Assembly (NCBI GenBank): GCA_030154025.1
Contig: JASKKT010000008.1
Span: 1-59,852 of the forward strand
Direction of reading: 5' to 3'
DNA length: 59,852 bases
DNA from: Methanolobus sp.
GTDB taxonomy: Archaea > Halobacteriota > Methanosarcinia > Methanosarcinales > Methanosarcinaceae
Made by a program: the position numbers and the translations under genes. Positions 38,974 to 46,113 of the stretch are shown in pieces. Numbering within the stretch: the stretch's first letter is position 1; each line of letters opens with the position of its first letter. Under the pieces are notes generated by a model. It had not been told where the DNA came from, did no database searches, and was given only the letters and a program-made list of their open reading frames with translations.

Positions 38974-39339
38974 TCATTGAACTGTGACGGAACCTATCAT
39001 TCCGGGATGTATTGTACATGAATAACTGAAGACACCCGCCTCCTCAAAAGTATAGCTGAATGTCTCACCCGGCTGCACCTCACCCGAATCGAACTCGCCG
39101 GCATCCGCAACTACCGTATGGGCCACCCTGTCGTCATTAGTCCAGGTGACAGTATACCCTTCAGAGACCCTTATATCCTGAGGCAGAAATCGGTAATTCA
39201 GCATGATCACCTCTGTCGTTTCAATTTCCCCCGGAGGCTGGATCTCACCTGGTGACTGGTAATCCGTACATCCTGATACAAAAGCCATTACTGCAAGTAA
39301 TACAAATACAAAGAATACTCCTCTCATAATCCTCCCCAT
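38974..39339 (-). CDS. Cupredoxin (plastocyanin-like) lipoprotein
   Basis: The 121-residue protein starts with a signal sequence ending FVSGC, a lipobox. After a Pro/Glu linker, a single type-1 copper domain has VTWTNDDRVAHTVVAD (first His) and FSYSCTIHPGM (Cys, His and Met ligands), the complete ligand set. It is a membrane-tethered copper protein outside the cell. It is downstream of the broken P460-cupredoxin gene on the same strand, and the copper domains resemble each other. Confidence 0.88.
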   Translation of the reverse strand: MGRIMRGVFFVFVLLAVMAFVSGCTDYQSPGEIQPPGEIETTEVIMLNYRFLPQDIRVSEGYTVTWTNDDRVAHTVVADAGEFDSGEVQPGETFSYTFEEAGVFSYSCTIHPGMIGSVTVQ

Positions 39340-39433: not shown

Positions 39434-40242
39434 TCAGCCTGTTACAATGACCTGCCCAGTAACACGATATGGATGCACTGTACACATGTAGTAGTAAGTG
39501 CCTGCCTGATTGAATGTGTAGCTGTAGGAATCTCCCTGTCGCATGGCTTCAGACCTGAACCTGCCGCCGTCTATAGTATGAACTGCTGAATCCATGTTCG
39601 TCCACCTTACAGTGTCGCCACCGCAATGGTGACAGAAGCCGGATCAAAGTCAAAGTTCCTGATATTGACCTCAGTTACCGGATAAGGAGTGCCTGTTATG
39701 TAAGCAGTATAGATATAGTCGTTAGCTGCCTCTACCGAGTGGCAGTTCTGGCATGACTCACCCCTTCCCTCGACTATTACTTCCCCTTCCGGAGTGTAGG
39801 CAGCCCAGAACCAGTCGTTGTGATCAGGGTCATAATCTTCTACCTTGTAACGCACACCTATTTTCCCTGAGCTCGCCTTCCGAATCATAGCTTTCCCTTA
39901 CCACCATGCTCCCGTAAGGCAGGGCACCTGCCCTATTCTCTATGGCAGGCAGGGCATTGTCCGAGACATAGGTGGTGAGCAGCGGCCGTGAATACTGACA
40001 CTTGCATACTTCTCCTCCCGCAAAGGCCACAGGTTCCAGTTCCGGTAGCTGTTCTCTTCAGTAATGTAACTGTACACTTCACTTCCGTTTGGTTCAGGAG
40101 GTCCTGTTTGCACAGGTCCGGGCTCGGCAGGAGGCACTTCCGGAATCTCTGTGCCCGCATCGTCCACGTCTTGGGCACCCGTACACCCGGTTGCCAGAAA
40201 TACACCTACAAGAACAAGAAAGATAATCATTTCAATCTTCAT
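39434..40242 (-). pseudogene. Frameshifted cytochrome P460-cupredoxin fusion lipoprotein
   Basis: Translated in stitched frames, the gene gives a lipoprotein signal (FLVLVGVFLATGC) and a Pro-rich linker. A cytochrome P460 domain follows: ENSYRNWNLWPLREEK, IHG, then LLTTYVSDNALPAIE, GSMVVRESY, VRYKVEDYDPDHNDWFWA, and the heme motif CQNCH. A cupredoxin domain completes it: FDFDPASVTIA, then DTVRWTNMDSAVHTI and YYMCTVHPY. The frame changes near 39978-39990 (one base missing), 39862-39880 (one extra) and 39612-39628 (one missing). Either the gene is recently inactivated or the sequence carries errors. P460 enzymes oxidise hydroxylamine or NO. Confidence 0.75.
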
Positions 40243-40411: not shown

Positions 40412-40591
40412 TCAGGTTTCAAGTATATCTAGCGGCCTCTTCAGAAAGGCTTTGATCATTCCCTGCTCATCCACATCACCTGAAAGCTTGACCAGTTCCC
40501 AGCCGTCGATGCCAAGTTCGTTCAGGTCCTCTTTCATAAGGTCCCACTCTCCAAAACGAACTGATTTTATTTCATATTCCCATGATGTCAT
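40412..40591 (-). CDS. Small DUF4177-like protein (59 aa)
   Basis: A minus-strand frame reads MTSWEYEIKSVRFGEW, then LNELGIDGWELVKLSG and MIKAFLKRPLDILET. This is the pattern of small DUF4177-type domains (WEYK...LNExGxxGWELV...xxKRP). No signal peptide or membrane helix. It stands alone between the P460 pseudogene and the repeat region. Function unknown. Confidence 0.72.
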   Translation of the reverse strand: MTSWEYEIKSVRFGEWDLMKEDLNELGIDGWELVKLSGDVDEQGMIKAFLKRPLDILET

Positions 40592-43486: not shown

Positions 43487-43765
43487 TCAGTGACTGAAGA
43501 ACAGTGAACAGTGGCAACTACCATTCTCTTTTATCTCATCATGGTGGTAGATACAGGGGCATATGATCTTGCGGTCCTGCTCCACATCACCGCTGACTAT
43601 TCGGCAGGGGCAGTATTGTTTTCCGAGTTCTGCCTTGTTCTTTGCAAGACCTTCTACCACAAGCTGAACCATTTCATCATCAGGATTTAATCTGTAACCT
43701 TTCCTTTTAGCATATGCAGTTGCCCATGCATGTGTTTTCTCCATAATAGGTTTAAGGTGTGTCAT
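43487..43765 (-). CDS. Ferredoxin-thioredoxin reductase-like catalytic subunit
   Basis: The 92-residue protein has the three paired Cys motifs of FTR: YCPCRI (about 51-56), ICPCIYH (about 68-74) and SCHCSLF (about 83-89), which bind a [4Fe-4S] cluster next to an active-site disulfide. It reduces thioredoxin-like disulfides with electrons from ferredoxin. ATG at 43765 has SD GGAG. It sits between fwdG and the cupin/Hcp genes on the same strand, so an oxidative or nitrosative defence role is plausible. Confidence 0.92.
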   Translation of the reverse strand: MTHLKPIMEKTHAWATAYAKRKGYRLNPDDEMVQLVVEGLAKNKAELGKQYCPCRIVSGDVEQDRKIICPCIYHHDEIKENGSCHCSLFFSH

Positions 43766-44265: not shown

Positions 44266-45882
44266 TCAGAGAAGGACCTTGAGGTCCTCCTGAACTGTTG
44301 TATGCGGTCTGATATTGAATTTCTCGACAAGCACATTGAGTATGTTGGGTGAGATAAATGCCGGCAGGGTGGGACCAAGGGTTATGTTCCGCACGCCAAG
44401 GCTCAGCAGCGCCAGCAGCACAAGCACAGCCTTCTGCTCGTACCATGCGATGTTGTATGCTATCGGAAGGTCGTTGATGTCCTCAAGTCCGAATGCTTCC
44501 GCAAGTTTCTGTGCGATGACCACCAGTGAATAGGAATCGTTGCACTGGCCTGCATCCAGGACCCGGGGAATGCCTCCGATGTCTCCCAGGTCAAGCTTGT
44601 TGTAGCGGTACTTGGCACAGCCCGCTGTGAGAATAACAGTATCGTGCGGCAGGGCCTTTGCGAAATCCGTGTAATAGCTCCTTTCCTTATGCCTGCCGTC
44701 ACATCCTGCCATGACCACGAACTTGCTGATCTTTCCGCTCTTGACGGCATCCACTATCTTATCGGCAACAGACAAAGCTGATGCGTGTGCGAACCCTCCT
44801 ACTATGGAGCCTTCCTCGAGCTGCTCGGGCGGCTTTGACTTTTTTGCCTGCTCGATTATGGCCGAGAAATCCTTTGTGCCGTCCTCCTTTTCCCCGATGT
44901 GGGTTACACCCTCGCATCCGACAATGCCTGTGGAGTATATCCTGTCAGTGTATGTTGCTTTCGGAGGTACCAGGCAGTTCGTGGTCATCAGTATGGGACC
45001 GTTGAACTTCTCGAACTCCTCTTTTTGCTTCCACCACGCACCTCCGTAATTGCCTACGAAGTTATCATAGTTCTTGAATGCGGGATAACAGTTTGCAGGA
45101 AGCATTTCCCCGTGGGTGTACACATCAACGCCTGTACCCTTGGTCTGCTCGAGGAGCTGCTCGAGATCGCGCAGGTCATGCCCGCTTATGAGTATGCCCG
45201 GCCTGTCGCGAACTCCTATGTTCACTTTTGTGGGTTCGGGGTTGCCGTAGGTAGAAGTGTTTGCCTTGTCAAGGAGGGCAAGCGTTGTGACTCCCACCGA
45301 GCCGCATTCCATTACCAGGCCCACAAGTTCGTCAGCTCCTACATTGTCGTCTGTTGTTGCTACAAGGGCTCTCTCAACGAACCTGAATATCTCATCGTCC
45401 TTGAACCCAAGCACGTATGCATGGTGGGCGTATGCAGCTATGCCCTTGAGACCGAAGATCAGCAGCGATCTGAGGGAACGGATATCCTCATCACCTGGGG
45501 CGTTGAAGCCTGTATCGATACCCTTGATGCTTTCCGGGGTTACCCTTGCCACCTCGGGAAGCTCTTCAAATTTCACATTCTGCTTTTCCAGCTTCTGCCT
45601 GATATTGTCCCTGATCTCAAAGCCTTCGCTGAGAAGTTCTTCTGCATTCTCCTTGCTGAAGTTGGTGTTCGTAAGAGTGGCGAAGAGCCCGTCAAGCATG
45701 AACCTGTCCGTCCTTTCCGCATTGATCCCATGTTCCCTTGCTTTCATATTATAGAAAGCGATGCTCTTCAGCAGATATATCAGGTCGTCCTGTAGTTCGG
45801 CGACCTCGCTTTTCTTTCCGCAGACACCCACTTTCAGACAGGCCTGCCCACTTGCTGTTTCTTCACACTGGTAACAGTACAT
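44266..45882 (-). CDS. hcp: Hybrid cluster protein (hydroxylamine / NO reductase)
   Basis: The 538-residue enzyme has the N-terminal cluster motif [20 protein letters not shown] (Cx2Cx8Cx5C, as in anaerobe-type Hcp). Hybrid-cluster ligand regions include [36 protein letters not shown] and [13 protein letters not shown]. It reduces hydroxylamine to ammonia or NO to N2O and protects against nitrosative stress. Length is close to the class I form. ATG at 45882 has SD GTGGTG; a GTG four codons earlier is possible. It is divergent from the HdrA-MvhD gene. Confidence 0.95.
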
Positions 45883-46113
45883 TTGTTTCACCACTTATAC
45901 CCAGATATCTTTTTGATACTAAGGGATTGGGGGTATTGACATATAAGTGGGGCAGTTTCCGGTTGGATACCTCAAAGAACTCTTGGGTGTGGAGGGGTAA
46001 AAAAGGAAATGGTAAACTGCTCACCGGTCTTCTCGACCGCAAATACTACTTACTTAAGAAGCAAAACTATATCTTTCCGAAGGTCATCATTTCTGCAAAA
46101 GGAAGCCACTAAA

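Follow-up and report, generated by a model that had tools for sequence, protein, structure and literature searches.

A disrupted P460/c'-beta-family heme-cupredoxin fusion gene in Methanolobus, intact in nine other genomes of the genus

Introduction

Cytochromes P460, such as those of Nitrosomonas europaea (NeP460), Nitrosomonas sp. (NsP460), and Methylococcus (McP460), are defined by a cross-link between the heme and a lysine, and hydroxylamine oxidation has been tied to this cross-link together with a distal carboxylate and a Phe or Arg cap; P460s that lack the cross-link have all proved inactive when characterized, and activity also depends on the distal carboxylate (PMC11928373). Peroxide is required for cross-linking in vitro (PMC11928373), and the bond is thus less likely to form in an anaerobe, even in proteins that have the lysine. 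Cytochromes c'-beta (McCP-beta, NeCP-beta, and TtCP-beta) have neither the Lys cross-link nor the distal carboxylate; they carry Phe or Met at the lysine site and a Phe/Arg cap in a mostly hydrophobic pocket. Hemes of this superfamily have potentials of approximately -200 to -430 mV, and wherever the structure is known, their distal site is free to accept ligands (PMC11928373).

Monoheme cytochromes modeled on P460 have been listed in archaea (PMC4429474), and expression of P460 in Methanoperedens, with upregulation accompanying N2O release, is cited in PMC12909507; as cited there for Methanoperedens, P460 genes of methane-cycling archaea have been interpreted in terms of hydroxylamine oxidation and N2O production. 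The open-access literature, to which our search was confined, yielded no description of a P460-cupredoxin fusion. Here, we analyze a window (the whole stretch of DNA under study, 59,852 nucleotides) from Methanolobus sp. that contains a disrupted copy of such a gene. Nine other Methanolobus genomes have the gene in intact form; its predicted product is a lipoprotein that combines a heme c domain of the P460/c'-beta family with a type 1 copper domain resembling amicyanin. Taken as a whole, the explanation that we favor, and consider somewhat better than even, is that of a fusion gene disrupted by recent loss whose intact form would be a ligand-binding or redox module at the cell surface.

Results and Discussion

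The fusion gene occupies positions 39434 to 40242 on the minus strand, as delimited by three-frame translation, alignment to its intact counterpart in the nearest relative (locus L029 of genome G040), and matches to a profile of intact fusions; no single open frame spans it. The first piece, in frame 0 of the minus strand, runs from MKIEMIIFLVLVGVFLATGC to NWNLWPLREEKYASVSIH and is followed by PLLTTYVSDNALPAIENRAGALPYGSMVVRESYDSEGELR in the second frame, by IGVRYKVEDYDPDHNDWFWAAYTPEGEVIVEGRGESCQNCHSVEAANDYIYT in frame 0 again, and by a last piece in the second frame that extends from GDTVRWTNMDSAVHTIDGG to CTVHPYRVTGQVIVTG. Translated in this order, the pieces encode a signal peptide with a lipobox (ATGC, in the context ...LATGC; positions 40183 to 40242, minus strand) whose Cys20 is shared by all 10 intact fusions compared, a P460-family domain with the heme c attachment motif CQNCH (39739 to 39753, minus strand) at its end, and a plastocyanin-like domain ending in CTVHPYRVTGQVIVTG, most of which lies at 39437 to 39619 (minus strand). 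In Pfam searches, the third frame piece matches PF16694 (Cytochrome_P460; E value of 2e-6; score of 28.6 bits, cut-off 27) and the last one matches PF00127 (Copper-bind; E value of 2e-5, above the cut-off). The profile of intact fusions recovers the window copy with E values of 6e-81 and 7e-32, so that the resemblance is more than chance. The lipobox, the two Pfam matches, and the three-frame translation thus bear out the original prediction of a P460-cupredoxin fusion lipoprotein read in displaced frames, and its methanogen host is a Methanolobus.

Alignment to the G040 gene places three single-base frame changes on the minus strand: one base fewer at 39986, one base more at 39864, and one base fewer at 39620, at most 6 bases from where they had first been called (39984, 39870, and 39620). 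These shifts had been described as compensating, which is true of the first two; however, a stop codon lies between them, and the third shift is uncancelled, so that the final 60 residues are read in a different frame. The part readable from the start codon (39940 to 40242, minus strand) amounts to 100 amino acids and stops before the heme and copper sites, and its product therefore contains neither the CXXCH motif nor the copper ligands. Programmed frameshifting was rejected on account of the plain open frame of the relative and of the stop that separates the first two shifts. Compared with its intact orthologues, the open frame of the window copy is destroyed, and this gene is the sole P460-family gene of its genome.

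Uninterrupted homologues, for which a search of related genomes had been suggested, are present in nine other Methanolobus genomes. They align over their full length with 64 to 94% identity, and the nearest copy is 91% identical at the DNA level. In G040, which is collinear with the window over 34 kb at 91.6% identity and over further blocks, the gene is a single open frame. We then weighed the alternatives raised by the original prediction, namely, recent pseudogenization or a sequence error in an intact gene. Generic sequencing noise fails as a uniform explanation: since the genes shared across approximately 42 kb of synteny and a further set of 201 ORFs hold few disruptions, uniform error is unlikely, although this argument does not touch a local one. 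Other single-base differences from G040 within the collinear blocks are intergenic or compensated within a few codons. Elsewhere in the genome, 9 of the 201 ORFs (189 kb) scored as disrupted, several of them antisense shadow ORFs, and the rate derived from this set is an upper bound because such shadow ORFs are included in it. At 6 shifts per 189 kb, the probability of finding three in one 870-base gene is near 3e-6.

A local sequence or assembly error would mean that the organism itself has an uninterrupted gene and that all three shifts are consensus mistakes. It would fit the state of the codons that can still be read: dN/dS between the window copy and G040 is 0.17, close to the 0.11 to 0.15 of intact pairs, and the branch leading to the window copy carries 13 nonsynonymous and 21 synonymous changes where that leading to G040 carries 12 and 15, so that neither dN/dS nor branch counts against G040 detect relaxed selection, and the window copy has no nonsense substitutions beyond the stops caused by the shifts. 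Three shifts without an excess of substitutions would also be a little unusual for a decaying gene. On the other hand, the rest of this genome shows few shifts, and these are scattered, none of the three falls in a homopolymer longer than 4, and the genome (2.26 Mb) is 99.8% complete with low contamination. The absence of relaxation fits an error as well as a recent loss. We regard such a mistake, for instance through low coverage at this gene, as possible but rather unlikely. The intact homologues and the lack of detectable relaxation favor the pseudogenization part of the original prediction: the loss is probably real, and, given that relaxed selection went undetected, it would have to be very recent.

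That a P460-family gene is unexpected in a strict anaerobe, as had been considered, is not supported: 34 of 112 genomes of the family contain one according to Pfam, and P460 in archaea is on record (PMC4429474 and PMC12909507), so that such genes are already known in archaea and are not exceptional in this family. Within Methanolobus, 20 of 27 genomes carry a P460-family gene, as a fusion in 10 (including the broken one of the window), as a stand-alone gene in 13, and in both forms in 3; the remaining 7 have none. The Methanolobus fusions form one clade (support 100/99), with a stand-alone protein of Methanohalophilus as their sister (96/91). A separate P460-cupredoxin fusion in a Methanohalobium metagenome-assembled genome is placed elsewhere in the tree with weak support, and P460 and cupredoxin are also coupled as adjacent genes. 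A third fusion, present in three genomes of a different family within the order (L081, L087, and L091), forms its own clade, and its cupredoxin-like tail lacks the copper Cys and is perhaps a non-copper descendant. An apparent Chloroflexota fusion (L060), whose match seemed to extend into the copper domain, proved to be an ORF for a stand-alone P460. A further P460-family gene, in a Methanosarcinaceae metagenome-assembled genome (L037; G002:C12:5192-5485), is interrupted by several stops and likewise seems to be decaying.

To the P460 family by sequence the fusion belongs: PF16694 scores above its cut-off in the window and intact copies, CXXCH lies near the C terminus of the domain, and the fusion shares with cytochromes P460 the strand order and a CXXCH followed by a conserved Asp and an aromatic tail. 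The pocket residues tell a different story from the family name. Alignments by hhalign and MAFFT agree on a site map that is fixed by the NsP460 numbering (Lys106, Phe76, and position 131) and rests on sequence at 18 to 20% identity. In this map, the cross-linking lysine (Lys70/78/106) is replaced by arginine (Arg116 in the motif VVRES; codon at 39896 to 39898, minus strand) in all nine intact Methanolobus fusions of the fusion alignment and in the window copy; in a 28-row archaeal alignment, all 7 Methanolobus fusion rows have Arg, and the other 21 have Lys. The site of the distal carboxylate (Glu96/Asp102) holds Asp or Glu in none of the 28 rows and corresponds in the fusions to Gly129 (or to Ile128 in an ungapped register). 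The capping position, Phe or Arg in cytochromes P460, is His in 28 of 28 aligned homologues (His85; codon at 39988 to 39990, minus strand) and Asn in L081, which lies outside that set. The Arg44 site is aliphatic in all 28 sequences. The fusion further differs from cytochromes P460 in having no Arg or His at the heme-propionate position and in its additional copper domain and lipid anchor. With Arg in place of the cross-linking Lys and no carboxylate, the Methanolobus fusion, as judged from these residues, is not a cytochrome P460 by the defining feature, and activity cannot be assumed from the family name; measured against the published requirements (PMC11928373), the original statement that P460 proteins oxidize hydroxylamine does not carry over to a protein with Arg at the cross-linking site and Gly at that of the catalytic carboxylate.

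Its heme domain instead resembles cytochrome c'-beta with a polar pocket, joined to an amicyanin-like cupredoxin. Like cytochromes c'-beta, it has no lysine at the cross-linking site and no distal carboxylate, and the best PDB match of an AlphaFold2 (AF2) model of the domain (pLDDT of 82.7) is the cytochrome c'-beta structure 7zqz (probability of 1.00), with a TM score of only 0.47. It departs from that class in its His cap, in the Arg at the lysine site, and in its fusion to copper. The AF2 model contains no heme and is weak around CXXCH (pLDDT below 70), a region in which the full-length model is poor and the domain-only model is better. When the profile of the whole family was searched against the PDB, designed kelch-like proteins also matched through a YDPEHNDW stretch and were disregarded. 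The stand-alone P460-family lipoproteins of Methanosarcinaceae, ANME-2, and Methanoperedens (33 to 57% identical) share the His cap, the aliphatic Arg44 site, and the missing carboxylate but keep the lysine and have no copper domain.

In the copper domain, the type 1 ligands His222 (39580 to 39578), Cys254 (39484 to 39482), and His257 (39475 to 39473, all minus strand) are invariant in 10 intact fusions, and PF00127 scores above its cut-off in the window and intact copies. Amicyanin and plastocyanin are among its best PDB matches, alongside a purple cupredoxin of Nitrosopumilus, and the His-Cys-His ligands and the CxxHP motif are shared with amicyanin, plastocyanin, and halocyanin. In contrast to these proteins, the Methanolobus fusions lack the axial Met, whose expected position holds Gln (seven), Lys (one), or His (one); Met occurs only in the Methanohalobium fusion (L017). 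They also carry an attached heme domain and remain below the NCBIfam cut-offs, with 39.7 to 53.7 bits for the amicyanin family TIGR02657 against a cut-off of 110.2.

The locus sits in a recurrent gene order. Directly downstream lies an intact gene for a small cupredoxin lipoprotein (38974 to 39339, minus strand; PF00127, E value of 1e-11), a counterpart of which occupies this position at most fusion loci and, in two genomes (G048 and G064), behind a stand-alone P460 gene. Directly upstream is a small protein of the sP36 family (40412 to 40591, minus strand; NF053529, 80 bits against a cut-off of 50), a conserved neighbor in part of the genus; sP36 is an ammonium-transporter inhibitor in M. mazei (PMC10714827). 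Strong sP36 matches occur in 27 of 27 Methanolobus genomes, and in eight of them sP36 precedes the P460 or fusion gene, giving a block of sP36, P460 or fusion, and cupredoxin in which two different P460 lineages fill the same slot. Since this order is limited to a clade, it may simply be inherited. A hydroxylamine reductase/hybrid cluster protein (Hcp), one of several in the genome, is encoded at 44266 to 45894; in G040, the opposite flank of the P460 locus carries a second Hcp gene of diverged sequence. A conserved link to Hcp was rejected: the gene is 4 kb away in the window but away from most fusion loci.

What would the intact protein do? The lipobox suggests a lipid anchor outside the membrane, and the heme would be attached by the Ccm system (CcmE is found in the window genome) without being cross-linked, while copper would be bound at the cupredoxin ligands. 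A small ligand, NO or another nitrogen oxide, might meet the heme under the invariant distal His85 and Arg116, and electrons could be exchanged by the heme and copper centers of the fusion and reach the neighboring cupredoxin lipoprotein. The likeliest role would be small-ligand (NO) chemistry or an electron relay at the cell surface. Cupredoxins have potentials far above those of the superfamily hemes. With the heme so far below, transfer from heme to copper would run downhill, and such transfer within the fusion is plausible.

The same downhill step would serve a genuine hydroxylamine or NO oxidase that works like cytochrome P460, with copper as the electron acceptor and His85 replacing the carboxylate. 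The upregulation of Methanoperedens P460 with N2O release (cited in PMC12909507) and the nearby Hcp and sP36 genes are in keeping with an oxidase, but the fusion has neither the Lys nor the carboxylate whose loss goes with inactivity in the characterized proteins (PMC11928373), and Hcp is not a conserved neighbor; we consider this improbable. Alternatively, His85 could be the sixth heme ligand of a bis-His, low-spin heme, making the protein a pure electron-transfer cytochrome, a heme-copper wire for surface electron transfer. The invariance of the cap-position His among the 28 aligned homologues, the fusion to a redox copper domain, and the cupredoxin lipoprotein downstream would all suit such a wire; nevertheless, hemes of known structure in the superfamily leave the distal site open (PMC11928373), L081 has Asn at the cap, and models without a placed heme give no His85-heme distance, so that we rate it as unlikely, albeit less so than the oxidase. 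Our tentative choice of function, held at rather less than even, is a ligand-binding or redox module at the surface that works in the manner of cytochrome c'-beta and not as a hydroxylamine oxidase; even there, the invariant His could stand in for the missing carboxylate as proton acceptor and allow some oxidase activity.

A bolder and more doubtful proposal is that the archaeal "P460" proteins constitute a third class of the P460/c'-beta fold, one that is capped by His and lacks the catalytic carboxylate. Its Methanolobus branch would have swapped Lys for Arg upon fusion to copper and thereby given rise to a new heme-copper NO/redox enzyme, anchored in the membrane, whose distal His and Arg form a pair like that of peroxidases. 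Whatever the class, the pocket residues argue against inferring hydroxylamine activity from the family name, and the case is clearest in the Methanolobus fusions. Because Lys has naturally changed to Arg in the copper-fusion clade alone, the purpose of the heme cross-link can be tested cleanly there. The recently broken copy and the 7 of 27 Methanolobus genomes without a P460-family gene suggest that the P460 system is accessory.

The surroundings of the broken gene hold two further observations. The downstream cupredoxin gene (38974 to 39339) has a dS of 1.02 relative to G040, compared with 0.12 to 0.37 for its neighbors and 0.27 for the fusion gene, which suggests that recombination with a more distant relative probably replaced this gene; a recombination border would then probably lie near the 3' end of the broken gene. 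Finally, a protein encoded at 43487 to 43789 matches the FtrB double-selenoprotein model (NF041072), although below the cut-off (91.9 of 160 bits).
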